DNA of 64,000 nt, taken from contig NZ_CP103288.1 of NCBI RefSeq assembly GCF_024758005.1, positions 4,379,992 through 4,443,991 of the forward strand, given 5' to 3'. Position numbers and translations under genes: made by a program. Positions 1,721 to 64,000 of this stretch are shown here, piece after piece (position 1 is the first letter of the stretch; every line of letters starts with the position of its first letter). This DNA comes from Pseudarthrobacter sp. NS4 (lineage in GTDB: Bacteria > Actinomycetota > Actinomycetes > Actinomycetales > Micrococcaceae). A model generated the notes under the pieces. It was not told where the DNA came from, ran no database searches, and saw nothing but the letters and a program-made list of their open reading frames with translations.

Positions 1721-2692
1721 ATGACTTCGACCGGCACCCCGAACTCCGTTACCCTCCGATTCCTGGCCGCGCCCATGGACGTGGGCCACAGCGGCTCGGT
1801 CGATGCCGGCACCGTCCTGGAGTGGGTGGACAAGGCGGCCTACGCTGCGGCTGTGGGATGGGCGAAGTCCTACTGCGTCACCGCCTATGTTGGGAACATC
1901 CACTTCGCGGACCCGGTCAACAGCGGCGATATGGTGGAAGTTGAAGCCACCATTGTTTACACCGGCCGGTCCTCCATGCATATCCGGACCGTGGTCTCCT
2001 CCGGAGACCCCAGGGGCGGGCCGGCCACCATGCGCAGCCAGTGCATGGTCATCTTCGTAGCCGTCGGGGAAGACGGAAAACCCACCCCGGTGCAGCAGTT
2101 CGAGCCCGTCACCGCCGACGAGGTGGAGCAGCGGGACCATGCCCTTGCCCGGATCAAGGTCCGCGAGCAAATCGTCGAAGCCATGAACCGGCAGGAATAT
2201 ACCGACGCCGGTACCGCCGAGCGGGTCACCCTCCGGTTCATGGCCGCTCCAACAGACGTGAACTGGGGCGGCAAGGTCCACGGCGGAATCGTCATGAAGT
2301 GGATCGATGAAGCCGCCTACGTTTGTGCATCCCGCTACTGCGGCAAAGACACTGTGGCTGTGTTCTCGGGCGGAGTGCGCTTTTACCGGCCGCTGCTGAT
2401 CGGGCATGTGGTGGAGGTGGAGGCCCGCCTGGTGTACACGGGAACCAAAGGCATGCACATCGCCGTCCACGTGCGCTCCGGGGACCCCAAGGGCGGCGGA
2501 CTGAACCTCACCACATACTGCCTCACCGTCATGGTGGCGCGCGACGACGAAGGCAACTCCGTCCCCATTCCCTCCTGGGTGCCCGTCAGTGAGGAGGATA
2601 AGCGGCTGCAGGCCCACGCGCGGGAACTGCTCGAGATTCGGGGCACTGCACCAGGCAACCGCCTCCCGAACCATCTGCTGGCGCAGGGCTAG
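1721..2692 (+). CDS. Acyl-CoA thioesterase with two hotdog domains
   Basis: Predicted cytoplasmic acyl-CoA hydrolase of the 4HBT/BFIT-like type, releasing free fatty acid and CoA. The 323-residue chain contains two homologous hotdog halves (about residues 8-125 and 165-285), each with the pattern LRFxAAPxDV, VxWxDEAAY or WVDKAAY, and YTGxxxMHI. The second half has the usual GGKVHGG turn ahead of the active-site helix; the first has a diverged GHSGSVDAG, as is common when only one half is catalytic. I chose ATG 1721; the frame is open further 5' but that part is not protein-like. It converges on dnaB with a 4-base overlap of the 3' ends. Substrate chain length cannot be read from the sequence. 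Confidence 0.88.
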   Translation: MTSTGTPNSVTLRFLAAPMDVGHSGSVDAGTVLEWVDKAAYAAAVGWAKSYCVTAYVGNIHFADPVNSGDMVEVEATIVYTGRSSMHIRTVVSSGDPRGGPATMRSQCMVIFVAVGEDGKPTPVQQFEPVTADEVEQRDHALARIKVREQIVEAMNRQEYTDAGTAERVTLRFMAAPTDVNWGGKVHGGIVMKWIDEAAYVCASRYCGKDTVAVFSGGVRFYRPLLIGHVVEVEARLVYTGTKGMHIAVHVRSGDPKGGGLNLTTYCLTVMVARDDEGNSVPIPSWVPVSEEDKRLQAHARELLEIRGTAPGNRLPNHLLAQG

Positions 2693-4071
2693 AAGCCGCC
2701 ACCGCCGGCGTCAGCGGCCATGTTCGCAAACCGGGAGTAGTGACCCTGGAAAGCGACCACGATGTCCTTGGTGGGGCCGTTACGATGCTTGGCCACGAGA
2801 ATGTCAGCCTCACCCGCACGCGGTGATTCTTTGTCGTAGACGTCCTCGCGGTGCAGCAGGATCACCATGTCCGCGTCCTGCTCAATGGATCCGGATTCAC
2901 GGAGGTCAGAGACCATGGGGCGCTTGTCCTGGCGTTGCTCCGATCCACGGTTCAGCTGTGACAGGGCAATAACCGGGACCTGGAGTTCCTTGGCCAACAG
3001 CTTCAGCGCGCGGGAGAACTCGGAGACTTCCTGCTGGCGCGACTCCACCTTCTTGCCGGAGCTCATCAGCTGCAGGTAGTCGAGGATGACGAGTTTGAGG
3101 TCGTGCTGCTGCTTCAACCGCCGGCACTTGGCCCGGATTTCCATCAGGGACATGTTGGGGCTGTCATCAATAAACAGCGGCGCGTCATTCATCCGGCCCA
3201 TGGTGGTGGCGATCTTGGACCACTGCTCGTCCTTGATGGTTCCCTTGCGGAGATCCTGCAGCCCGATGGTGGCTTCTGCCGAGAGGAGGCGCATGGCAAT
3301 CTCGTTGCGGCCCATTTCGAGCGAGAACATGACCGTGGCCAGGTTGTTCTTGATGGCGGCGGAGCGGGCAAAGTCCAGGGCGAACGTGGACTTACCGACG
3401 GCGGGACGGGCTGCGATGACGATCATCTGGCCGGGGTGCAGGCCATGGGTGAGCTCATCAAGTTCGTAGAACCCGGTGGGGACACCGGTCATGCCCTCAC
3501 CGCGGTGGCCTGACGCTTCGATCTCGTCCACCGTGGACTCCATGACGTCCTTTAGGACCACGTAGTCCTCGGCGGTGCGGCGTTCTGCCACGGCGTATAC
3601 CTCGGCCTGGGCCTGGTTGACCAGGTCCTCCACCTCACCATCGGAGCCGTAACCCAGCTGGACGATCTTGGTACCGGCATTCACGAGGCGCCGGAGGACA
3701 GCCCGTTCGGCAACGATCTCCGCGTAGTACCCTGCGTTGGCCGCGGTGGGAACAGTCTGGATCAGCTCATGCAGGTAGGCCGGACCGCCGATCCTGTTGA
3801 TTTCCGCACGCTTGGTCAACTCATCGGAAACGGTCACGGCATCGGCGGGCTCACCGCGGCCGTACAGGTCAATGATCGCTTCGTAAATGGTTTCATGGGC
3901 CGGCCGGTAGAAGTCCTGGCCCCTGAGGATCTCCACCACATCCGCGATGGCGTCCTTGGACAGCATCATGCCGCCCAGCACCGATTGCTCGGCGGCGATG
4001 TCCTGGGGAGGCTTTCGGCTAGTGTCTGATCCGCGGGAAGTCTCCACCGGGTCCAGATGCGCGATTGACAA
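2689..4071 (-). CDS. dnaB: Replicative DNA helicase DnaB
   Basis: Hexameric 5'-3' helicase of the replication fork and binding partner of primase. The 460 residues are the normal intein-free length. The N-terminal domain (about 20-130, starting PPQDIAAEQSVLGGM) is followed by the RecA-like domain with Walker A ARPAVGKST, Walker B KLVILDYLQLM and the DnaB-type HREDVYD and HRNGPTKD segments. Start ATG at 4071 directly precedes the conserved N-terminus. As in many actinobacteria it lies downstream of rpsF-ssb-rpsR-rplI on the same strand, here separated by four small genes. Upstream of it sits a cluster of DnaA boxes, which may couple its transcription to initiation. Confidence 0.98.
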   Translation of the reverse strand: MSIAHLDPVETSRGSDTSRKPPQDIAAEQSVLGGMMLSKDAIADVVEILRGQDFYRPAHETIYEAIIDLYGRGEPADAVTVSDELTKRAEINRIGGPAYLHELIQTVPTAANAGYYAEIVAERAVLRRLVNAGTKIVQLGYGSDGEVEDLVNQAQAEVYAVAERRTAEDYVVLKDVMESTVDEIEASGHRGEGMTGVPTGFYELDELTHGLHPGQMIVIAARPAVGKSTFALDFARSAAIKNNLATVMFSLEMGRNEIAMRLLSAEATIGLQDLRKGTIKDEQWSKIATTMGRMNDAPLFIDDSPNMSLMEIRAKCRRLKQQHDLKLVILDYLQLMSSGKKVESRQQEVSEFSRALKLLAKELQVPVIALSQLNRGSEQRQDKRPMVSDLRESGSIEQDADMVILLHREDVYDKESPRAGEADILVAKHRNGPTKDIVVAFQGHYSRFANMAADAGGGGF

Positions 4072-4228: not shown

Positions 4229-4706
4229 TTATCCCCACTGTCCACAGGTTTTCCACAAAGGCCTCTCCCGAGGGCCGGAACTGGCCGGGGAACTGCGGTT
4301 TTACCGCAGTTCCCCGAGCTAATTACTGCCCTAAGAACAGGTACCCCGCTACGGTAGCCGCCCGGGGTCCAGCCGCAAAGCCGGGTTGCCGGAAGGGCTG
4401 TGGATAAGCTGTGCAGTAACCGGCATAGCTTGTGCACAGCCTGTGCGAAAGCCTGTGGATACAAAAAAACTTTGAGTTGCTACCCGCCCCTGACCAGCGA
4501 AAACGTCTTCTCCCGCATGTGGAGTAAATATTTCTTCTGTGGAATTTCATCCACAGGCCGTACCTGCCATTCGGGCAGGATGGCGCCTGGACTGTCCCCG
4601 TGACCAAGTTCATGCATCAGCCGTGGCGGTTCTCATATTCCACGTGAAGCGTTTGACCTGCCTCTCACCGTCCGATAAGCGCACAGGTGAATATTGCTGT
4701 GGATAA
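4229..4706. other. DnaA-box cluster upstream of dnaB
   Basis: The 660-base gene-free gap between dnaB and the next gene carries repeated matches to the 9-mer TTATCCACA. Perfect inverse copies (TGTGGATAA) lie at 4399-4407 and 4698-4706. Near matches are TTATCCCCA 4229-4237, CTGTCCACA 4238-4246, TTTTCCACA 4249-4257, TGTGGATAC 4454-4462 and TCATCCACA 4547-4555. No gene was seen in the gap. Could be a DnaA-responsive promoter of dnaB or the divergent gene, a DnaA-titration site, or a relic of the origin. Confidence 0.7.
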
Positions 4707-51821: not shown

Positions 51822-52778
51822 GTGACCATCGCAGAAAACACCGCGCCCGAAGTGCGTGATGTCATCATTGTCGGCTCCGGTCCGGCTGGTTACACGGCGG
51901 CCGTTTACACGGCTCGCGCCAACCTCAAGCCACTGTTGCTTGCAGGCTCCGTAACTGCGGGCGGTGAACTGATGAACACCACCGATGTCGAGAACTACCC
52001 GGGCTTCCCCGATGGCATCATGGGGCCGGACCTCATGGAGAACTTCGAAAAGCAGGCAGCGCGGTTTGGAACGGAAATCCAGTTCGAGGATGTAACGGCG
52101 CTTGACCTCGAAGGCCCGGTCAAGACGGTGACGATCGCCACGGGGGAGAGCTTCCAGGCAAGAGCAGTTATCCTCTCAACCGGATCCGCCTACCGGGAAC
52201 TGGGGCTGCCTAACGAGAAGCGGCTTTCGGGCCACGGTGTCAGCTGGTGTGCAACCTGTGACGGTTTCTTTTTCAAGGATCAGGACATCGCCGTCATCGG
52301 CGGTGGCGACTCTGCTATGGAGGAGGCCCTGTTCCTGACCAAGTTCGCGAAATCAGTTACGGTTGTGCACCGTCGCGACTCGCTCAAAGCTTCCAAGATC
52401 ATGGCAGACCGCGCTCTTGCCCACGAGAAGATCAACTTCATCTGGAACAGCACGGTCGAGGACGTTGTTGGCGAGGACAAAGTCACCGGCCTCAAGTTGA
52501 AGAATCTGGTAGACGGTGCGGTGTCCGATCTTGCGGTTACGGGTGTGTTTGTCGCCATTGGCAATGACCCCAGGACTGACCTTGTGAAGGACGTCCTGAC
52601 GCTGACCCCCGAGGGCACGATCGCGGTTGAGGGCCGGAGTTCCAGGACCAGCATTCCCGGTGTATTCGCTGCCGGTGACGTCGTTGACCCCACCTACCGC
52701 CAGGCCATTACCGCCTCCGGCTCCGGTTGCGTTGCTGCCATCGACGTAGAACACTACCTGGCTGACCTGCCCGCATAG
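51822..52778 (+). CDS. trxB: Thioredoxin reductase
   Basis: NADPH-dependent FAD enzyme that reduces thioredoxin. The 318 residues start at GTG 51822 ([11 protein letters not shown]), after an AAGGAAGAGG-like site. FAD loop [13 protein letters not shown], redox-active SWCATCDG (CATC), NADPH loop [11 protein letters not shown] and C-terminal FAD motif [10 protein letters not shown] are all present. Upstream lie a terminator and the SigR-type promoter; trxA follows by 38 bases in the same operon. Confidence 0.97.
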
Positions 52779-52816
52779 TTTCGCCCAATCGCTATCCGAA
52801 GAGAAAGACAAAGGTT

Positions 52817-53143
52817 ATGAGCAACGCAAAAGACGTAACTGACGCAAGCTTCGGGACAGACGTCCTGTCCTCCGAGAAGCCGGTAATCGTGGATTTCTGG
52901 GCCGAATGGTGCGGGCCCTGCCGCAAACTGGGACCCATCCTCGATGAGATTTCCGTTGAGTACAGCGAGAAGGTGAATGTCGTTAAGGTAAACGTTGACG
53001 ACAACCCCGCCATTGCAGCCGAATACGGCATCACGTCCATTCCTGCCGTGTACCTGTTCCAGGGCGGCGAGGTGAAGAACACCGTCATCGGTGCGAAGCC
53101 GAAGCAGTTCTTTGAGAAGGAATTCTCGGACGTCCTTTCCTGA
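52817..53143 (+). CDS. trxA: Thioredoxin
   Basis: A 108-residue thioredoxin with the redox centre WAEWCGPCRKLGP, the buried Asp of the VDFWAEW strand and the cis-Pro in ITSIPAVYLF. ATG 52817 follows GACAAAGG. It forms an operon with trxB and ends with a strong terminator. In mycobacteria cwlM follows at this place; here no gene follows for 4.6 kb. Confidence 0.97.
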   Translation: MSNAKDVTDASFGTDVLSSEKPVIVDFWAEWCGPCRKLGPILDEISVEYSEKVNVVKVNVDDNPAIAAEYGITSIPAVYLFQGGEVKNTVIGAKPKQFFEKEFSDVLS

Positions 53144-53178
53144 GCATGACGTCCCTCCGGTTGACTACCGGGGAGAAC

Positions 53179-53215
53179 AAAGTGGTCACTGCCCCTGGGG
53201 CGGTGGCCACTTTTG
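53179..53215 (+). terminator. Terminator after trxA
   Basis: A 17-bp stem with two G-U pairs (AAAGTGGTCACTGCCCC with GGGGCGGTGGCCACTTT) followed by TTGTTT, 35 bases after the stop. Confidence 0.9.
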
Positions 53216-53325
53216 TTTGGGTACCAATTTGGGTTGGCCGGGGGACCCCTCGCTCGCGTTCGTGATGGTGATCCAACCTTCTGCGCCGGCCTGGACTTCC
53301 TAATGGGTAGCATCTCTAAACCAGG

Positions 53326-53341
53326 TGTTTCACGTGAAACA
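53326..53341. other. parS site 1
   Basis: Perfect TGTTTCACGTGAAACA palindrome, the ParB-binding consensus. Confidence 0.95.
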
Positions 53342-53583
53342 GCGCCTGCTCCGTCCTGCGTCTGCACTTCTGGCTTGGCGGGGAAACTGAAGTCATCACT
53401 TGACGTCTCCACCTCTTCCAACCAGGCATAAGCAATTCCCGAGCCTCGTGCAGAGCAGGACTGTGCCCCCGGTGGGGAAGACAGGCGACACCGAGGGCTT
53501 CAAACAGCTTTTGGTAGCGGAAATGACGGCACTCGCGGGCCTCGGTCTCCAAAGCGCTCTTTGGGTTGGCGGAAAACGATACT

Positions 53584-53599
53584 TGTTTCACGTGAAACA
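53584..53599. other. parS site 2
   Basis: Perfect TGTTTCACGTGAAACA, extended by one base pair on each side to an 18-bp palindrome. Confidence 0.95.
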
Positions 53600-54022
53600 A
53601 CACGACCGCCCGGTCGCCAGAACGAAGTTGGGGGTAGCGGGCACTACCTGAGTCTCGCGTTCCCGCCTACCTCCGAATCATCGTCCCCGTCATCACTCCC
53701 AAAATGGGGAACCGGCCTATACCTGGACTCCCTGGACCATAATCGGAGAGCGACCCGGTAAGGCCATCCCCTCCAGAGCTTCACCCGCAACCATACTCAA
53801 TTCGCCCGGAAGTCGTCTATTGTGCGCTTCATGGACCCTTACACGGAATGGCGGAGCAAGATCTAACCGTTGATAATGGCGTGCTCCCCAGCACAAGCAG
53901 CACTTGTTTTGATGCTTCCCCCCCAAGCAGGTCCCGTCAGTGGTGGTGCTCCACGCTTCACATCTTTGGCCCTAGTTCTCGTGTTCAAAGGACTTCGAGC
54001 TACGGGTGGTCGGGGCAGCTGT

Positions 54023-54038
54023 AGTTTCACGTGAAACA
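54023..54038. other. parS site 3
   Basis: AGTTTCACGTGAAACA, one mismatch at the outermost base. Confidence 0.9.
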
Positions 54039-54792
54039 TCAACACCTGGTTCCGGCAAAAACGAGTGGAGTACGGTTGGGACGAGACGAGGCACGTCGGT
54101 CGGCTTCACGGCGCGCAGCGAAGGGCTGGCTAAGGCGGGCCCCGTCCCTGGCGCGGTTTAGAACCAGCAACAACCTGCAATCGCGTCGTCCGAAACCCAG
54201 GCCAGAGTAGCCAGCAGGATACTACCGACATAACAGCTTCAAGCTCGGTCCTCGATGAACCTAGAACGGAAACCCATCGCGCATCTCCAAGTATCACACC
54301 TAAACCAACCCTAGACAGATTCAGGCCGGGCTAAGGGACCGCTGGAATCCGCTGCAGCCGGACAGGACAAAGGTCGCACGTGGTCAAAGTTCTGTAGACG
54401 TGAGCCGCGCACTAAGTGCGTATAACGCCAGTCCACATACAGCCGCATTACATCGGCGCCTCACAGGTGGTACGGGGACAAAGGTACCTCCGATCAACAA
54501 TTCCTCGACTTCGGCAGAAAGCCCTTTGTGAAGCTTGCGACTTTTAGGCGGAACCCTCGGCTTCGAGACCGCCCTCAGGAACAACCACGCTGAGCAACAG
54601 GCTTCCGGCGTGGACCTGATCGAATATAGGTGTACCCGCCAGGCGCCTTCCGTACCCCTTCCAGCATGTGGCCTACCGCGATGGCCTCCACGCAAGGGCG
54701 GAGGAGAGTTCCAGTTGCCGCTCATTGCCATGCAGAAGCTGCAGCAACTCGTGTATCCGAAGCATTTTTGCGATGTAGAAAGCGCAGGGTGA

Positions 54793-54808
54793 TGTTTCAC
54801 GTGAAACA
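54793..54808. other. parS site 4
   Basis: Perfect TGTTTCACGTGAAACA. Confidence 0.95.
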
Positions 54809-55367
54809 GCCTTATCCCGCCCCGTGGCACCCCGCGAACGCCAGATCAAGCCCTCGCGGACACAAGGCTTGACTTAACGAAGAGCAAACGAGCCTTCTCA
54901 TCACAGATGCTGAGTCAGTGAGGAATTCGTGAATATTTTGGCTGAAACGTACCGTAGGCGACAGGCTTCCATATAGAACGCCGGCCCAATTCGAATCCGT
55001 CCAAATACAGGGCTGACATCAGAATCCGGACCACAAGTGACTAAGCTAGCCGTTTCCAGGCGAGCCCAGTTTCACGCCGGTAGTCCAGCCAAACAGGGCC
55101 TGGCGGTGACGTCTGTGATCCACTCCGGTACTACTGCTGCCCAGGCAGCAAGACCACGCCACAGACTTAATCATCCCAGCGCTGTGTGCCCTGCAGCGGG
55201 GAGCATAGCGCCGCGGGAATACTCGGCACGAAGAATTACTCGGCCGAAAGGACGAGCTTCCTAGGGGTCCTTCAACGTCCCACCATGGGTCCGCTGTCTT
55301 GGTCCAGCCGGAACCACACCCCAAAAATTGCAAATCTGCCACCTCCCAATTCGGTGTGGTCGCGCGT

Positions 55368-55422
55368 TGTTCCACAGGTTTTCCACAGGTACCGTCGGCG
55401 CTTATGCACAGCGTTTTCCACA
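55368..55422. other. DnaA-box-like group A in the gene-free region
   Basis: Four near matches to TTATCCACA on the same strand: TGTTCCACA 55368-55376, TTTTCCACA 55379-55387, TTATGCACA 55402-55410 and TTTTCCACA 55414-55422. Spacings are 11, 23 and 12 bases, near one or two helical turns. Confidence 0.6.
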
Positions 55423-55623
55423 GGCGGCGGCTTTCCTGTGACGAAGAACATATTGATACCACCCAGTGGGCCACGGCCTAGGTCGATAGCGTGAAGCAAG
55501 TCGTTCGCTGTAGCTACTCTCAAATTCACCATCCCGGGCGGTTTCGCCGTCACGAGCAATGACCAGGCACCCTTGAGGGGTTGAAACGCGAAAGCGTGCA
55601 CCTGTTTTGTTGCGCGCTGTCGG

Positions 55624-55639
55624 TGTTTCACGTGAAACA
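55624..55639. other. parS site 5
   Basis: Perfect TGTTTCACGTGAAACA, between the two DnaA-box groups. Confidence 0.95.
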
Positions 55640-55733
55640 CCCGTAGTCCCTATAACCGTCGCCGAACAGGGACAGCCAAGAACTTCCTGCCAAGAGCACT
55701 AGCGCATGCAGGTGACCGGACATCTCCACGGCC

Positions 55734-55778
55734 TTGTCCACACAGTTATCCACACCGATATCCACAACACAATCCACA
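55734..55778. other. DnaA-box group B: four boxes at exact 12-bp spacing
   Basis: TTGTCCACA 55734-55742, TTATCCACA 55746-55754, ATATCCACA 55758-55766 and CAATCCACA 55770-55778, all in one orientation with 3-base spacers. The first two are exact matches to actinobacterial and general DnaA boxes. About 8 kb from the main oriC cluster. Confidence 0.8.
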
Positions 55779-56269
55779 GCAGGACGGACCTTTGGTCTGG
55801 ACTTGAGAAGGCCTGCCGCCGCGGGGGACCTGAGGAACTGTAGGGGCGGAGCGCCCTGTTCCTCCGGGATGTTTAGGATCGCCGTCGAGCGTCGGATATC
55901 TGCGGCACAGACGTCTAAAGTGAAAGTGACACCATCTAGCGCTTCCCCCCAAGTTGACTTGCCTATCGCTGGTTTCCTGCTTCCCCTGGTCTGCGGCCAA
56001 CCTGCCAGTGCATGCCTTGAATCGCTGCTGTTCAAAACTGGATTCGTTCCCGTCCGAGCATCGCTTCGAGGCCGCCCACCATAGGGGCGGTAGCGGTCCC
56101 GACAGCGCTACGTAGAGGAACTGGGGGAAATTGCCAAATATTGAAGTCGCCAATAGCTGCATGATTGTAGCGTCCCGTCATGATCCTGTCCCGTGCCGTT
56201 TCAGCGACCTGCTGTTGCCCAGAAAGAAGGGGATACCTTCGCAAGCATGCAGGTAGGGCACCCGTGTAC

Positions 56270-56419
56270 TGGAGCACCATAAGTAGGGCATGCCCGTATC
56301 GGAGCACCACAGATAAGGCACGGCCGTAGCGGAGCACCAAAGTCAAAGCACGCCCGCAGCGGAGCACCAAAGTCAAAGCACGCCCGCAGCGGAGCACCAC
56401 AGACAAAGCACGCCCATAG
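56270..56419. repeat. 30-bp tandem repeat, five copies
   Basis: Units start at 56270, 56300, 56330, 56360 and 56390, each beginning TGGAGCACCA or CGGAGCACCA; units 3 and 4 are identical. A decayed unit may precede (56240-56269). There are no spacers, so this is not CRISPR. On the minus strand it encodes ten-residue repeats (VLRCGRALTL) without other signs of coding. Confidence 0.9.
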
Positions 56420-56743
56420 CCGGCTCTTACAGTTCACGAGTTTCCAGTAGGGACCTGGCGTTTCAAATCGCACGGGGGACGTGCAACGGGTGTGGCTGGA
56501 AGCGATAGATGGCCATACCGACTTAGATGCGATACTGCCACGCCCGCAATTCCAATTCAGGCGAAGGCCATCCACGGCTGGCTTAGCAACTCTTGCGGAG
56601 GCAGTGAGACACGACACCATTGTTCCATCTCGTAGCCCAGCAGGACAATCTGCTCTTCAAATCAAGGTCACGGGCTTCGTCAGCAGGAGACCGTGGGCCT
56701 TCTGAGTACTGGCCATCGCCACCGGGCATAGGGCGGTTGACAG

Positions 56744-56759
56744 CGTTTCACGTGAAACG
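56744..56759. other. parS site 6
   Basis: CGTTTCACGTGAAACG; the outer base pair differs symmetrically from consensus, leaving a perfect palindrome. Confidence 0.85.
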
Positions 56760-56857
56760 TTGCGAGGTCACCGCCATTCGCACATGTACCCACTGCACAC
56801 TATGGTGATCTCGACTGCATGAAACAGTCCGGCCTGCTGGCCGCACCACCTAGAGCC

Positions 56858-56873
56858 AGTTTCACGTGAAACA
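56858..56873. other. parS site 7
   Basis: AGTTTCACGTGAAACA, one outer mismatch. Confidence 0.9.
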
Positions 56874-57411
56874 CTCCGAGCACTGCCCCAACGTGAACGT
56901 GGTTTCTGATGGTGGATCGTCCCAGTTCCACGGTGACTAGCCGCTAACACGGCGACTGATCCCACATAGCAACCGCCCATTAAGGTGTTGCCAGCATGCG
57001 GCTTCTGCAGTCCGCGTATGCGGCAGGTCATTGCTGCATCCCTGGACAGCTCATGGGCCCGCCGAACGGCGGCAGTGGGAGGTCAGGTCCGTCTAGGCCT
57101 CGTCGACAGCCTCAAGCGGCCCGCATTTCTATGTCGGCTAATAGCTGCCGCTTTTGCACTATATGGGCAGAGAAGCGCGATGGCCTATCAAAGGAGGGCA
57201 ACCCGCACAAAAGGGAAGAAGTGCAAGTGCTCCACCGGTTCAGTCTTAGTTTGTCATCGAAACGCAAGGCTAGGCTCCAAATCCAGTTTTGGAGACCCAT
57301 GATGCGAACTTGCACTAACGGCTTCATGCGATCCCTCGGTGACTCCGAGGTGCCCCTTCCTCCTCATCAACAGCGACCGGGGTGGAAGACCAAGAGTAGG
57401 CCAAGACTAAC

Positions 57412-57427
57412 TGTTTCACGTGAAACG
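57412..57427. other. parS site 8
   Basis: TGTTTCACGTGAAACG, one outer mismatch. Confidence 0.9.
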
Positions 57428-57761
57428 GCTCCGCCAGAACGCGACCTCATCGGCGCCAGATCGGCACCGAAAACGCGACTGCTGACCGATCCTGCTAATC
57501 CGATAAACTTCTGGACCTAGCCGAAGCTAGGCCAAAAATCGACTGGCGTTAACCTTATGAGAGGAAACTTAAGACAGGGCACTATTCCTCACTTCCCTAT
57601 GCGATCAGACCCGAGGCGGGGAGCGTTTGGCTGGATACAACGGCCGCCGCAGAAGAAGTTGACCTGACTTGCAAATCCCAGCCTGGAGCGCCGGTAACCT
57701 GGCGGGGGAGCGTAGCGCGGTCCTTTGCATAGGGAGAGGACGAGATTGTGGGGCCATACAG

Positions 57762-57799
57762 AAAAAGGGCCCGATTCTTTGAGAACCGAGCCCCTTTTT
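57762..57799. terminator. Terminator after parB
   Basis: AAAAAGGGCCCGATTCT and AGAACCGAGCCCCTTTTT pair imperfectly around a short loop. Runs of A and T flank both sides, so it could stop transcripts from either direction. It lies just beyond the parB stop (57809). Confidence 0.85.
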
Positions 57800-57808
57800 A
57801 GTGTCAGC

Positions 57809-59113
57809 CTAGTTGGTTGATCCGGGGGCCAGCACGTCCATGATGCGGTTCAGATCCTCGACGCTCGCAAACTCGATGCTGACCTTACCCTTACGGACAC
57901 CAAGGGAGATCTTCACGTTGGTATCCAGGCGGTCGGACAATGACGACGCAAGGTAGTCGAGACGCTCGTGGCGTGCGCCAGGGCGGGGAATATTGTTCTT
58001 CGTTTGCTTTGTCGGATCCTGGTACAGGGTGACGGCCTCTTCTGTTGCCCTTACGGACATACCCTCAGCCACAATCTTTTGGGCCAGACGCTCCATGGCG
58101 GCAGCATCGGGGAGCGAGAGGAGGGCGCGGGCATGGCCTGCTGACAGCACACCTGCAGCAACACGGCGCTGCACCAGTGGAGGAAGTTTCAGCAGCCGAA
58201 GCGTATTGGACACCTGAGGGCGTGAACGGCCGATCCGGTCCGCCAGCTGCTCATGGGTTGTGCCGAAGTCCTCCAGGAGCTGCTGGTAGGCTGCTGCTTC
58301 TTCCAGCGGGTTCAGCTGGCTGCGGTGCAGGTTTTCCAGCAACGCATCGCGCAGCAGGTCGTCATCGGTGGTATCCCGGACGATGGCGGGGATGGTTTCC
58401 AGTCCAGCTGCCTGGACAGCCCGCCAGCGGCGCTCACCCATGACGAGCTCGAACGGCTCGCTACCGGTTTCGGTTGACTTACGGACCACGATTGGCTGGA
58501 GGACGCCAATTTCGCGAACGGAGTGAACAAGCTCAGCCATGTCGTCTTCATCGAAGACAGAACGCGGCTGCTTACGGTTTGGGTGGATATCAGAAACGGG
58601 AATTTCGGCGAACCGCACGCCCGGTACCTCAACAAGTTCCACACCGGAGTCGGTGCCGGCAAACTCCTTGAGGGGCTCAGGTGCAGTACTCACCGGAGCC
58701 GGGTCAGAGGGTGCCTCTTCTTCGAGGTTCTCGCTGGACGTCTCCTTGGCAGCCGTCCTCTTGCCGGCAGAGCGCTCCGCTTCGGCTGGAGAAGGCGAAT
58801 CGGAAGCTATCTTGTCGGCAGCAGCCCTGGGATCAGGCTCGGAGGATTCAACAATCCTGGAGGAATCCTTCTTCTCGGACGAAGACTTCGTGGAAGTCTC
58901 GGAATCAGGCGCGGAGATCAGCTTGTCGGCAACGGACTTTGCGGTCTCCACGGCAGCATCGTCCGAGGGTTCCGTCTTCTTTCGGCCCTCAGGAAAAAAG
59001 AGGTCGACCGGACGGGATACGGCAGCACCATTGTTGCCCTGCCCATTGGATGCGGCGGAACTTGGAATCAGCGCGCCAAGACCGCGGCCTAGGCCCCGTC
59101 GCTTCTCGCTCAT
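57809..59113 (-). CDS. parB: Chromosome partitioning protein ParB
   Basis: CTP-dependent clamp that loads at parS and spreads to form the segregation complex. The 434 residues begin [19 protein letters not shown], the ParA-interacting motif. About 130 residues of Ser/Glu/Ala-rich linker follow, longer than usual. The ParB/Srx domain (from [19 protein letters not shown], in part) has the CTP-binding GERRWRA box; then the parS-recognising helix-turn-helix ([19 protein letters not shown]) and a C-terminal dimer domain. Transcribed with parA, 63 bases downstream of it. Nine target sites are nearby. Confidence 0.98.
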
Positions 59114-59176
59114 GGGTAAATCCCTCCAGTGGTAGAACCAGCATTGCCGGCTCCGGTCGTTGCAGTTTTGAAGATT

Positions 59177-60244
59177 TTAGCGTTCTGCTATTTCAGCAGC
59201 GGCTTCCAAGTAGGACAGCGCACCACTGGAGGATGGGTCATACGTCATAACCGTCTGCTGATAGCTCGGTGCTTCGGAGATGCGCACTGAGCGGGGAACC
59301 ACTGCTGAAAGCACCTGCTCCGGGAAGTGCGTCCTCACCTCGGCAGCAACCTGGGCAGCGAGATTGGTCCGACCGTCATACATGGTGAGCAGGATGGTGG
59401 ATACAACAAGATCGGCATTGAGGTGCTTCTGGATCATCTCGATGTTCTTGAGAAGCTGACTCAGCCCTTCGAGCGCGTAGTACTCGCACTGAATGGGAAT
59501 CAGGACCTCATTGGCTGCGCAGAAGGCGTTTACAGTCAAAAGTCCCAGGCTGGGCGGGCAATCGATGAAGATGTAGTCGAGACGTTCTTCACCGTTCTTT
59601 TCCCGCGCCTTGGCATACACGTCAATTGCACGGCGAAGGCGCTGCTCGCGCGCCACCAGTGACACCAGCTCAATTTCGGCCCCGGCCAGGTGAATGGTGG
59701 CCGGCGCACAGATCAGCTTGTCGATGTCAGGGCACTGCGCCACCACATCGGCCAATGCCATGTCATTGATCAGGACGTCGTAGATGCTGTCCACGTCAGC
59801 GTGGTGTTCTATACCCAAAGCTGTGGAGGCATTGCCCTGGGGATCGATGTCGATCACCAGGACGTTCAGCCCGGCGGCGGCCAGGGCTGCCGCAATGTTC
59901 ACGGTAGTGGTGGTCTTTCCGACACCGCCTTTTTGGTTGGACACGGTGAAGATCCGGGTCTTTTCCGGCGTCGGGAGCCGGCGTCCCATCAGACGCTCAC
60001 GGCGCTTGGTTTCATGGGCCAGTTCCCGCGCAATTGGACTGGAATCATCAATTGCATCGATGATGTTGGTTCGGCCTGAAGAGGTTGTTTCACGTGAAAC
60101 AAGGGCAGCCGTACCGGAATTAGTAACCTGCTTAGGGTGATTTCCACCTCTGCCCGGGGCCAGGACGGGACCAGCGACAGAACGAGCTGACCCCAATGAC
60201 ACAAACGGCGGTATCCGTTGTGCGGAGGCTTCACTACTGGTCAC
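59177..60244 (-). CDS. parA: Chromosome partitioning ATPase ParA
   Basis: Deviant Walker ATPase that moves ParB-bound origins along the nucleoid. The 355 residues comprise an N-terminal extension of about 95 residues, then the core: SNQKGGVGKTTTTVN, DIDPQGNASTALG and IDCPPSLGLLTVNAF. A perfect parS lies within the extension (encoding VSRET). GTG 60244 is the first start in frame; a start nearer PIARELAHE or MGRRLP is possible and would leave parS outside the gene. The extension is common among actinobacterial ParA proteins. Confidence 0.96.
   Translation of the reverse strand: MTSSEASAQRIPPFVSLGSARSVAGPVLAPGRGGNHPKQVTNSGTAALVSRETTSSGRTNIIDAIDDSSPIARELAHETKRRERLMGRRLPTPEKTRIFTVSNQKGGVGKTTTTVNIAAALAAAGLNVLVIDIDPQGNASTALGIEHHADVDSIYDVLINDMALADVVAQCPDIDKLICAPATIHLAGAEIELVSLVAREQRLRRAIDVYAKAREKNGEERLDYIFIDCPPSLGLLTVNAFCAANEVLIPIQCEYYALEGLSQLLKNIEMIQKHLNADLVVSTILLTMYDGRTNLAAQVAAEVRTHFPEQVLSAVVPRSVRISEAPSYQQTVMTYDPSSSGALSYLEAAAEIAER
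60086..60101. other. parS site 9, inside parA
   Basis: Perfect TGTTTCACGTGAAACA, an 18-bp palindrome with flanks, within the 5' part of parA. Confidence 0.95.
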
Positions 60245-60333
60245 TGGGGCACACTCACTCTCGTTCAGCCAATTTTGCTGCCGTTGACTAGCCTAACTGC
60301 TTGACCCGCCAGACTACGGTCACCGGGCCAGGA

Positions 60334-60984
60334 CTAGGGTTTCTTTTGGGACTTGTTTACAACGATGCGTACAACCGTGGTGGGCTCCTCGAGCAGGTTG
60401 TCACCAACGGTAAGGACCGACGTCTGCACGCCGCCCAATTTACGGATCGTTTTGGCAGCCTTTTCGATTTCCTCGCTGGCGCTGCGGCCCTTAATTGCGA
60501 CAACCTCACCGTGTCCGGCGAGAAGGGGGATGGTCAGCCCGGCCAAGTTACTCAGGGCAGATACTGCCCGGGCAGTCACAACATCGGCTTCCACCTGACC
60601 CACTGCGAGCTCGGCGCGGGTGCGCATCACCGTGACATTGTCCAGTCCGAGGTCATCCACCACTTCCTGGAGCCAGATTACCCTGCGCTCCAGCGGCTCA
60701 ATCAGGGTCACCTCAAGATCCGGACGAGCGATGGCCAGGCAGAGGCCGGGGAGTCCGGCGCCGCTGCCGACGTCGGCCACGTGGCTGCCTTGGGCAATCT
60801 CGCTTTCGATGACTGCGCAGTTGAGGACATGGCGGCTCCAGAGCCGGGGAATCTCCCGTGGGCCAATAAGGCCGCGCTCTGTGCCGGAGGTAGCCAGATG
60901 TTCAACGTAGCGCTTGGCCAGCTCAAGCCGATCGCCAAAAATCTTCTCAGCGGCCAGCAGCTCAGCTGCCGTGATGTCAACCAT
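60334..60984 (-). CDS. rsmG: 16S rRNA (guanine-N7) methyltransferase G
   Basis: Methylates G527 (E. coli numbering) in the 530 loop of 16S rRNA with S-adenosylmethionine; loss gives low-level streptomycin resistance. The 216 residues have the SAM-binding VADVGSGAGLPGLCLAI, LIEPLERRVIWLQEV and the downstream VTARAVSALSNLAGL. It sits in the conserved order khpB-rsmG-parA. Confidence 0.97.
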   Translation of the reverse strand: MVDITAAELLAAEKIFGDRLELAKRYVEHLATSGTERGLIGPREIPRLWSRHVLNCAVIESEIAQGSHVADVGSGAGLPGLCLAIARPDLEVTLIEPLERRVIWLQEVVDDLGLDNVTVMRTRAELAVGQVEADVVTARAVSALSNLAGLTIPLLAGHGEVVAIKGRSASEEIEKAAKTIRKLGGVQTSVLTVGDNLLEEPTTVVRIVVNKSQKKP

Positions 60985-61005
60985 GATTATCGGGTCAGCA
61001 ATTCT

Positions 61006-61572
61006 CTAGTCTGCGGATACGACAATGTGGCGTCCGGTGCCTTCACCCTCGGACTCGCTGACGAGGCCCAGGTCTGCAACCGCGTCGTGAACGATTTTCC
61101 GCTCGTAGGCACTCATCGGCTCCAGGGCTACAGACTGGCCGGTTTCCTTCACGGTAGCGGCAGCGTCTTCGGCGATCTTCTGCAGATGGCCGGTACGTTC
61201 CTGCCGGTATCCGTTGATGTCCAGCACCAGCCGTGACCGGTTCTCTGTGGCGGACAGGACAGCGAGCCTGGTGAGTTCCTGAAGGGCCTCGAGGACTTCG
61301 CCGTCCTCGCCTACCAGGCTGTCCAGCCCATCGGTCTCCTCTTCGGCAACGATGGAAATATAGGTGCGGCCATTGCGGACTTCGATGTCGATATCGCCGT
61401 CGATATCAGCGATGTCCAGCAATTCCTCCAGGTAGTCGGCCGCGATGTCCCCTTCTTCTTCGAGGCGGCTGACAGCCGACACTTTGGGAGAGGACGTCTC
61501 CTCGTTCACGGACTCGTCCTGATCTTCGATGATCTCTTCAGAAAGGGCGTGTTCGGTACTCTCGGCTGACAT
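61006..61572 (-). CDS. khpB: RNA-binding protein KhpB (Jag), R3H domain
   Basis: Cytoplasmic RNA-binding protein of 188 residues. An acidic N-terminal region (rich in E, D, S) is followed by a KH domain (DIEVRNGRTYISIVAEEE, LVGEDGEVLEALQEL) and an R3H domain (MSAYERKIVHDAV, SEGEGTGRHIVV). The Jag-N domain of firmicutes is absent, as usual in actinobacteria. Start ATG shares a base with the yidC stop (TAATG), so the two are coupled. Confidence 0.95.
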   Translation of the reverse strand: MSAESTEHALSEEIIEDQDESVNEETSSPKVSAVSRLEEEGDIAADYLEELLDIADIDGDIDIEVRNGRTYISIVAEEETDGLDSLVGEDGEVLEALQELTRLAVLSATENRSRLVLDINGYRQERTGHLQKIAEDAAATVKETGQSVALEPMSAYERKIVHDAVADLGLVSESEGEGTGRHIVVSAD

Positions 61573-62543
61573 TACTTTTTCTTCCTGTTCTTGCGTTGTG
61601 GCTGGACACGCTGGACCTTGGGTTCGACGACGGCGGCCGCGGCAGCAGCGTCCGCTGCTTCATCTTTCTTGCCGCTCAGGATCGACAGGGCCGGAAGGCC
61701 CTTGGCGGCACGGCGTTCGGCAAGGGCCTTGGCGGCGGGGGATCCCGGCGTCGGCATGCGCCGGATGACGAAAAACTGCTGGCCCATTGTCCAAAGGTTG
61801 GTGGTGGTCCAGTAGATGAGGACACCGATAGGGAAGTTGATACCGCCCACGCCGAACACGATCGGCAGGATGTAGAGCATCATCTTCTGCTGGCGCATGA
61901 AGGGGCTGGCCATGGCTTCTTCAGACATGTTCTTGGCCATGATCTGCTTCTGCGTGATGAACTGCGAGGCCGTCATGGCAAGGATCATGATGATCGAAAG
62001 GATCCAGACGGCGGTCTGGTTTCCTTCCCCGCCGTGCAGCAGGGAAGCGGACAGCGTAGCCCCGAAAATGGTGGAGTCATCAAACTGCACCACCTGCTCG
62101 GGACTCATGGCACCGATGCCCTTGCCCTCACGGCTTGCCGTTGAAATACCGGAAAGCACCGTGAACAGTGCGAAGAAGAACGGCATCTGGATCAGCATGG
62201 GGAGGCACGCGGAGAACGGGTTGGTCCCGTGCTTCTTGTACATCGCCATCTGCTCCTGCGCCATGGCCTGGCGGGACAGCTGGTCGGTCTTGCCCTTGTA
62301 CTTGTCCTGGAGCTTCTTCAGGTCAGGCTGCAGGAGCTGCATGCCGCGCTGCGCCTTGATCTGCTTCACGAATACGGGAATCAGGGCGGCGCGGATCACC
62401 AGCACCAGCCCGATGATGGAGAGAGTCCAGGTCCAGCCTGAGGCACCAGGCATGCCAATGGCGCTCAGGCCCTCATGGAAGCCCACCATGATGATGGATA
62501 CAAGCCATTTGAACGGAAACATGATTGTTTCAAAGAAGTCCAT
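61572..62543 (-). CDS. yidC: Membrane protein insertase YidC
   Basis: Inserts and folds membrane proteins with or without Sec. The 323 residues show the Gram-positive five-span layout: N-terminal span (MFPFKWLVSIIMVGFHEGL), the positively charged cytoplasmic hairpin (KQIKAQRGMQLLQPDLKKL), conserved KKHGTNPFSACLPMLIQMPFFFALF (in part), and a basic C-terminal tail (QPQRKNRKKK) that can bind ribosomes. The large periplasmic domain of proteobacteria is absent. Confidence 0.97.
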   Translation of the reverse strand: MDFFETIMFPFKWLVSIIMVGFHEGLSAIGMPGASGWTWTLSIIGLVLVIRAALIPVFVKQIKAQRGMQLLQPDLKKLQDKYKGKTDQLSRQAMAQEQMAMYKKHGTNPFSACLPMLIQMPFFFALFTVLSGISTASREGKGIGAMSPEQVVQFDDSTIFGATLSASLLHGGEGNQTAVWILSIIMILAMTASQFITQKQIMAKNMSEEAMASPFMRQQKMMLYILPIVFGVGGINFPIGVLIYWTTTNLWTMGQQFFVIRRMPTPGSPAAKALAERRAAKGLPALSILSGKKDEAADAAAAAAVVEPKVQRVQPQRKNRKKK

Positions 62544-62558
62544 ACTTATCCCTATTCG

Positions 62559-62951
62559 TCAGGCCGCACTGCGGCCTTCTTCATCAGTCCGAGCAGCCAG
62601 GTACTTGTCCGGGTTGTTCAGCACAACAATTGTGGGGGCCTGGCTTTCGGGCCATTCCCGGTTTCCGGCGGGGACATGGTCCACACCACCGGCATTCCAT
62701 GGGTGGCAGCGGCCAAGGCGGCGGACAGCCAGCCAGCTTCCCTTGACGGCGCCATGGACAGTGACCGCTTCAAGGGCATAGGCCGAGCATGAAGGGAAAA
62801 AACGGCAGACCTGGCCGTACAGGGGTGAGATCACCTTGCGGTAGGCCTTGAGCAACACGATGAGGATGTTCCGGGGCAGGTTCCACAGGAAGATCCCGAC
62901 GGCGGCGGCTACAGGATAAGCGCGGGCGACGACGACGGTGGTGTTACGCAC
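62559..62951 (-). CDS. yidD: Membrane protein insertion efficiency factor YidD
   Basis: A 130-residue membrane-associated protein that aids YidC-dependent insertion. An amphipathic N-terminal helix precedes the signature [23 protein letters not shown] and the [13 protein letters not shown] motif with conserved Cys residues. Longer at the C-terminus than the E. coli protein. It overlaps rnpA by eight bases. Confidence 0.96.
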
Positions 62952-63354
62952 GCGGGGTCCCCTCCTGTGTTGTAGCGGCCGAACCGTTCGCGGCAGCCTT
63001 AGGAAGGCGGCCCGCCAGCCGGGTCAGCGCCGATTCCAGTGCAGCGTTGTAGTCCGACAGCAGCTGGTCCCAGCTGGCAGACGCGGACGCAGGAAGCGCC
63101 CGGACCACTATGGCGAAGCCGGTGCCATGCTCGCGCAGCGAGGCAGCACCTGCTTCTCTTAGTCTCCTCTTAACGAGGTTCCTGACCACAGCGTTCCCTA
63201 CACTCTTGGAAACGATGAACCCGATCCGGCTGGGTTCGTCGGCAGCAATGGCTGCCGCATATAACACTACGTTCCGGCGTCCATTGCGGACACCGGAACG
63301 TACAGTTGTTGAAAAATCGGTTGCAGTCCTCAAGCGGTTGCGGGCGGCCAGCAC
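62944..63354 (-). CDS. rnpA: Ribonuclease P protein component
   Basis: Protein subunit of RNase P, aiding 5' processing of pre-tRNA by the catalytic RNA. The 136 residues carry [20 protein letters not shown] near the N-terminus and the RNR-like basic signature [17 protein letters not shown]. The order rpmH-rnpA-yidD is conserved. The catalytic RNA gene is not in this window. Confidence 0.97.
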
Positions 63355-63394
63355 CTTAAACTCGCAAAGAGACGTCTACCGACAAGTCAGTTAT

Positions 63395-63532
63395 TTATGC
63401 CGACAGCTCGGTGCGGCCCTTGCCACGGCGGGCTGCCAGGATGGCGCGGCCGGCACGGGTACGCATACGAAGGCGAAAGCCGTGCTTCTTGGCTCGACGG
63501 CGGTTATTCGGCTGAAAAGTCCGCTTGCTCAC
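63395..63532 (-). CDS. rpmH: 50S ribosomal protein L34
   Basis: A 45-residue very basic protein of the large subunit, [18 protein letters not shown] at the N-terminus and [13 protein letters not shown] end ([10 protein letters not shown]). It begins at GTG 63532 and ends in TAA at 63395-63397, 40 bases ahead of rnpA. As first gene after the origin its promoter should lie in the DnaA-box region to the right. Confidence 0.97.
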
Positions 63533-64000
63533 GTTAGTTACTCCAGTGGATCAAAGGTGCGCCCACCCGATCAGTATGGGGAAGAACTGGCCGACGCTAA
63601 GTTTTGTATATGCACGCTTCCCCCGGCTGCTCAAACGCGGAGCGTCTGAGAGATTCAGATGGGGCCAAAAAGCGGACACAAAGGACTTCACAACGTTAGG
63701 CAATTTAAGCCCCTGAGTCAAACCGGAGGGCGGTCCTGCAGCTATCCCCAGCTGTGCTTAACCTGGCCGCTGAGCCTGTGGATGAAGTGGCTCACAAGGC
63801 CCTTTTCGGAACCACAACGGTGTAATTATCCACAAGCTACTTGCCAGCTATCTTCTAGGCTTTTCATCCCCTAGAGTGGCCCAGTAGCCGATTATCCACG
63901 GACTGTGCATAACCCTGTGGATTAAGCTGGGCCAGCATCCTGGTTCCGGACTTGGGGCTGCAGGCAATGCAGGCAAAGCAAGTTTTGAGGGAACCCATTG
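63533..64000. other. rpmH-dnaA intergenic, origin-side DnaA-box cluster (runs off the window)
   Basis: Perfect TTATCCACA at 63826-63834; near matches CTATCCCCA 63742-63750, TGTGGATGA 63777-63785, TTATCCACG 63892-63900, TGTGCATAA 63904-63912 and TGTGGATTA 63916-63924. No gene in the 468 bases. In actinobacteria oriC proper may lie here, between dnaA and dnaN, or both; dnaA is expected just to the right on the plus strand. Confidence 0.8.

Follow-up and report, generated by a model that had tools for sequence, protein, structure and literature searches.

A conserved pair of same-strand DnaA-box groups in the centromere region of Pseudarthrobacter and its relatives, a candidate datA-like element

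Organization of the locus

In the 64,000-nucleotide stretch of the Pseudarthrobacter sp. NS4 chromosome analyzed here (the window), a 4.67-kb spacer with no convincing gene (53144..57808) lies between the convergent genes trxA (52817..53143, plus strand) and parB (57809..59113, minus strand), with parA (59177..60244, minus strand) on the far side of the latter. The names trxA, parB, parA, and, below, dnaB are our reading of the respective proteins, and that of trxA does not come from a family search. The spacer forms the centromere block and carries parS at eight positions (53326, 53584, 54023, 54793, 55624, 56744, 56858, and 57412). It is unusually long and apparently noncoding, measuring 4–9 kb and carrying 7–12 parS sites in most close relatives. 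An imperfect tandem repeat, with about five 30-bp units, is situated at 56258–56420, inside the parS block. Noncoding RNA was considered and rejected, as window positions 52000–64000 yielded zero Rfam matches at gathering thresholds.

Two groups of DnaA boxes are located in the middle of this block. Group B (55734..55778, plus strand) consists of four boxes in a 12-bp register, at 55734–55742 (TTGTCCACA), 55746–55754 (TTATCCACA), 55758–55766 (ATATCCACA), and 55770–55778 (CAATCCACA), all in the same orientation and separated by 3-nt spacers; the first three constitute the conserved core, and the fourth differs from TTATCCACA at two positions. Group A (55368..55422, plus strand) also has four boxes, TGTTCCACA at 55368, TTATGCACA at 55402, and two copies of TTTTCCACA at 55379 and 55414. 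The layout is bipartite: group A is followed by approximately 310 bp containing the fifth of the eight parS sites, TGTTTCACGTGAAACA (55624..55639), whose center is 118 bp before the center of B, and then by group B. The sequence-only reading from which this work started had placed four same-strand boxes in exact 12-bp steps, group A, and the intervening parS at these very positions, and each was found there. The array was also described as being in perfect, helically phased register; the spacing is indeed regular, but “helically phased” is loose wording, because 12 bp differs from the 10.5-bp helical repeat.

Since the window ends the contig and the first base of the contig starts dnaA, group B begins 8,267 bp (8.27 kb) 5′ of the dnaA ATG, under the assumption that the ends of the single 4,443,991-bp contig join in a circle (contig position 1 being window position 64001). 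The oriC boxes upstream of dnaA (63777..63924) are of mixed orientation, with 63826 and 63892 on the plus strand and 63777, 63904, and 63916 on the minus strand; six further DnaA boxes are found in the dnaA-dnaN spacer. Yet another six boxes, with at most one mismatch and on both strands, are localized at 4229–4706, upstream of dnaB (2689–4071, minus strand). As similar box-rich regions precede dnaB in five relatives (L201–L204, L206), DnaA may control this helicase gene. Elsewhere in the genome, the DnaA AAA+ family is matched a second time at G000:C1:3808952-3809260 (44.6 bits, above the family cut-off), perhaps by another AAA+ protein.

The clustering of boxes is far from what chance would produce. 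Counting the oriC and dnaB boxes, the window contains 20 DnaA boxes with at most one mismatch, versus 4.9 expected, and 0 of 100 shuffles reached this number. Same-strand triples at 12-bp steps were absent from 400 Markov-simulated spacers, versus one observed. In the whole 4.44-Mb genome the pattern TCCACAN6TCCACAN6TCCACA occurs without mismatches only at array B, in two overlapping registers; the best occurrence in the dnaA-dnaN spacer has two mismatches, as do two other places in the genome.

Conservation in the Arthrobacter group

We collected 64 loci of the Arthrobacter group (L175 was omitted, as parB is outside its stretch) and removed four duplicates with identical 120 bp around B, leaving 60 loci. 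An exact 12-bp triple was present in 59 of these, the exception being L023, and this fraction is biased upward because the 12-bp spacing was required to locate B. The B core consensus of the 59 distinct loci is tTaTCCaCAaaGTTATCCACAg.gaTATCCACcG, and the place of the fourth box shows 50–80% agreement in its middle (.tatccac.). An extra box matching at least 6 of 8 positions was found at +36 in 27 loci, at −12 in 13, and at either in 34 of the 59, the background being 0.003 per position. The boxes are strikingly uniform in direction, 371 of 382 occupying one strand and 11 the other. Among 242 spacings between neighbors at most 40 bp apart, 161 equal 12 bp and 14 equal 13 bp, with many of the others at 22–24 or 34–36 bp; these counts comprise all boxes in regions located by the 12-bp rule, while the box lists of the named loci were made without it. 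In those lists, two same-strand groups are present in 24 of 25 loci, whereas L018 has one, its other group being mixed-strand.

Group A, defined as two or more plus-strand boxes within 40 bp of each other and 230–480 bp before B, accompanies B in 58 of the 59 loci, and in the remaining one (L011) it is 1.85 kb away. The distance from the first box of A to the first box of B is approximately 320–425 bp, both groups having been retained while the flanking sequence diverged. By eye, this distance seemed to vary with a periodicity of about 12 bp, a candidate feature that we rejected as confounded by the array register.

In a 1.3-kb alignment of 25 loci (L024, L026, and L030 being left out), the columns reaching 85% agreement or more are all confined to A, parS, and boxes 1–3 of B. 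This bears on the possibility that the boxes belong to a DnaA-controlled promoter of an unrecognized RNA or gene in the spacer. DnaA doubles as a transcription factor, which speaks for such a role, but an alignment devoid of strongly conserved columns outside the three elements, together with the negative Rfam result given above, makes it highly improbable.

Of 198 genomes belonging to the genus, 189 carry a strict B pattern with at most three mismatches, and a reversed-pattern control gave 0 among the matches listed. One of the nine genomes that miss it has no ParB match, two are represented by contigs ending within 0.8 kb of parB, and five retain both box groups in a degenerate form. In L216, neither a box cluster nor trxA was found over 10.6 kb downstream of parB. 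For 40 genomes taken from among the matches listed, four of them repeats of named loci, the array adjoins trxA in all 40; the stretch extends to parB in 39 of them, and in every one of these the array is located between the two genes. The sequence-only reading had proposed that loss of the array from close strains keeping the parS block would speak against it; no refutation came from this side, with the five degenerate loci still carrying both groups. As far as predicted sites can tell, this conservation lends strong support to its central claim, a second locus of DnaA boxes within the parS block, some 8 kb away from oriC.

Distribution of the box groups outside the genus

A ParB search of named genomes yielded 80 loci, and 56 sequences, the window included, with a trxA-parB gap of 800–9,500 bp were compared. 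Three or more boxes fall within 150 bp of each other in 24 of the 56, namely, the window and 23 loci named Arthrobacter, Pseudarthrobacter, Paenarthrobacter, or Sinomonas. The other 32 have no such cluster; these include Rothia, Glutamicibacter, Cellulomonas, Arthrobacter agilis, gandavensis, and koreensis, and one locus named Paenarthrobacter (L031), with the reservation that the non-bearing loci were delimited by the best trxA match, which in distant families is possibly not the orthologue. In the ParB tree of 58 rows, 24 bearers, i.e., all except Sinomonas L023, form one clade (support 99/97), and the bearer/non-bearer label requires two changes. The wider supported group of 29 unites all 25 bearers with four non-bearers, two of which are Psychromicrobium loci (L032, L042) with almost no spacer. 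Box groups are thus absent from some relatives just outside the bearing clade (L026, L031).

In a second genus, g7, which we take to be Sinomonas, two box groups are present in the trxA-parB spacer of all 15 genomes drawn in the family-level search; the boxes are mostly on the plus strand, and five genomes have one minus-strand box beside A. This layout is shared by L023, a named Sinomonas locus. None of these 16 loci has parS between A and B. Their nearest parS is 156–822 bp from the first B box, and in three of the 16 one parS is situated 77–80 bp before A.

At the family level, the strict B pattern matched 123 of 395 genomes, in 10 of 32 genera. Outside the genus, 25 matching genomes were re-searched and 20 of them examined in context. 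Eight of the 20 genomes have a match between dnaA and dnaN, five have one upstream of dnaB, and one has it in the trxA-parB spacer; the stretches of the other six, two of which are short contigs, contain none of these genes. L210 carries a further match that is not at oriC. In genus g21, three loci (L194–L196) contain a dense DnaA-box array in stretches with no dnaA, parB, or dnaB, that of L194 being adjacent to rhomboid and sortase genes.

The eight dnaA-dnaN triples belong to three other genera, and oriC of Pseudarthrobacter itself has box pairs at 12 bp; the array can therefore be assigned to the orisome type. Could the A-B element then be a subsidiary origin that opens DNA and loads helicase, as was also suggested from the sequence? 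Its AT maxima are slightly higher than in the rest of the spacer in 42 of 59 loci (the mean of the best 30-bp AT fraction is 0.654 near A-B versus 0.614 elsewhere in the spacer). However, the AT profile, examined for an adjacent unwinding element, revealed no strong one: in the window the best 30-bp fraction is 0.63 near A-B versus 0.73 in the dnaA-dnaN spacer, the region upstream of dnaA also having 0.63. As a strong AT-rich element is wanting, an origin at A-B is not favored, and we regard it as very improbable.

Predicted curvature between the groups

In most of the 59 loci, the DNA between A and parS (55509..55614 in the window, where the signal is weak) contains A/T tracts phased at 10.5 bp, predicting intrinsic curvature. 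The mean power of A/T tracts at 10–11 bp in this segment, the main test interval of −230 to −115 having been picked after sequence inspection, is 3.54; 43 background windows average 1.15 (sd 0.13) with a maximum of 1.53, and Markov shuffles of the segment give 1.38, with 0 of 300 reaching the observed value. A scan over 34 offsets yields 3.35 at −250, 4.05 at −200, and 1.75 at −150, and does not exceed 1.33 at any other offset. In a wedge model, on whose parameters the A/T-tract measure does not depend, the mean predicted bend is 49.9 degrees versus 25.8 degrees for the background of the same loci. The bend exceeds the locus's own background mean in 52 of 59 loci and is in the top tenth in 32; L147 and L171 are relatives for which it is predicted to be strong. 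The signal is unlikely to be just inherited sequence, because in 21 loci with segments less than 55% identical the power is still 3.27.

The feature has evident exceptions. The power is above 3 in 37 loci and at most 3.0 in 22, and the window itself is near background (32 versus 25 degrees, power 1.7). In g7, the bend test over the whole A-B interval failed to reach significance (p 0.19 and 0.15). Nor are phased A/T tracts confined to A-B, as some oriC windows also have raised power (3.23 and 2.76 in 22 named loci), in sequence likely common by descent. Given the g7 result and the lack of parS between A and B in that genus, neither the predicted bend nor parS is universal to the A-B arrangement.

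Proximity of parS to group B

Throughout the genus, a parS site with at most two mismatches has its center 79–131 bp from the center of B (59/59 loci). The nearest one is on the A side in 46 loci, 106–131 bp before the B center and most often at 118–119 bp, with satellites near 107 and 128–131 bp. In the other 13 loci it is on the far side of B, at 79–106 bp; the named examples are two Paenarthrobacter loci and one of Arthrobacter sp. (L012, L015, L016). Helical phasing of parS relative to B was considered and set aside, as the 17 distinct upstream values give a weak R of 0.31 at 10.5 bp and the 10 downstream values give 0.27.

One explanation of this proximity is centromere licensing, in which DnaA bound at A-B would act on ParB-parS and start origin movement with little effect on replication timing. 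The precedent is the Caulobacter centromere, which binds DnaA and moves at low DnaA without replication, according to PMC6399470, citing Mera 2014. Both loci have DnaA boxes beside a parS near the origin, and in our case parS stays near B even where it has changed sides. They differ in that the A-B sites are predicted ones, forming a bipartite array repeated across an actinobacterial genus. Licensing is possible but on balance rather unlikely. Boxes adjacent to parS, as in Caulobacter, are found in all 59 loci of the genus but not in the second genus, where A and B persist with B farther from parS; nor would such a role need a bend between the groups. The nearness of parS to B is kept in the genus, yet is not a necessary part of A-B, because g7 and L023 retain both groups with no parS between them. 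The earlier suggestion of a junction of DnaA and ParB control is plausible from parS placement in the genus and loses force from the lack of this placement in the second genus.

The relation of the two proteins might also be antagonistic. On chromosome II of V. cholerae, ParB2 spreading from parS2 displaces the initiator RctB in one of the models described in PMC6399470. At rctA/parS2, as at A-B, initiator sites adjoin parS near the origin, so that ParB spreading could evict an initiator; this likeness rests on site layout, and the predicted initiator at A-B is DnaA and not RctB. Conversely, DnaA filaments on A and B could act as a roadblock that bounds or patterns ParB spreading in the centromere. 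The position of A-B inside the parS block, with parS at a similar range, would suit a roadblock, but parS sites flank A-B on both sides and a barrier there would not confine ParB, which renders this explanation very unlikely.

A possible datA-like assembly site for DnaA

Among the known extra-oriC loci, datA of E. coli offers the closest parallel. As described in PMC5742627, its essential boxes all point in one direction, IHF bends the DNA between them, and DnaA-bound ATP is hydrolyzed; in the DARS core, box I runs counter to boxes II and III. The A-B element resembles datA in that it is noncoding (no gene-like conserved columns), belongs to the oriC half of the chromosome (8.27 kb from dnaA), and has unidirectional boxes (all eight in the window are on the plus strand). 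A bend site between the groups may be a further likeness, being predicted in most relatives but weakly in the window and not significantly in the second genus. It differs from datA in its distance from oriC, 8 kb rather than hundreds of kb, in having a 12-bp triple array, in its position inside the parS block, and in that predicted intrinsic curvature (most relatives) takes the place of the IHF site. DARS1 and DARS2 are likewise clusters of DnaA boxes outside oriC, and DARS2 also employs bending proteins, but DARS fits badly because of its opposed box I; the conserved A-B boxes share one direction, the B core boxes being all on the plus strand. Of the functions first proposed for the array, datA-like regulation or titration agrees best with the single box direction and with the predicted bend in most of the 59 loci. 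Simple titration, however, may call for more than eight boxes.

Our preferred reading, which we hold tentatively and rate somewhat short of probable, is that the four boxes make up one half (B) of a bipartite predicted DnaA assembly site in the centromere, where a looped A-B complex, gated by ParB, would lower the DnaA available to oriC. DnaA would oligomerize head-to-tail on A and on B, and curved DNA between the groups would bring them together. The complex could then reduce the DnaA activity available to oriC, either by titration or by datA-like hydrolysis of DnaA-ATP. As A-B is 8 kb from oriC, its dose should double as soon as initiation has occurred. ParB clamps that load at the neighboring parS could move along the DNA into B, gate the complex, and tie it to the state of the centromere.

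An extension of the datA-like reading, doubtful at present, is a switch between replication and segregation. Here a single centromere complex would sense both DnaA, through two arrays joined over curved DNA, and ParB, through clamps from the B-side parS, so that assembly or movement of the centromere would time the release of DnaA to oriC 8 kb away or its withholding.

In the literature searched, we found no paper combining Arthrobacter, parS, and “DnaA boxes,” and no title on Arthrobacter ParB, parS, or chromosome segregation concerned such an element; subscription papers were mostly beyond reach, and an earlier report is possible. The coupling of replication start to origin separation is largely open beyond a few model bacteria. 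Within approximately 400 bp, the element described here combines predicted sites for the initiator with a centromere site and, among most relatives, predicted curved DNA, and does so across a large genus of soil bacteria. Such a guarded, predicted double site for DnaA within the centromere hints at a direct link between copying the chromosome and separating it.
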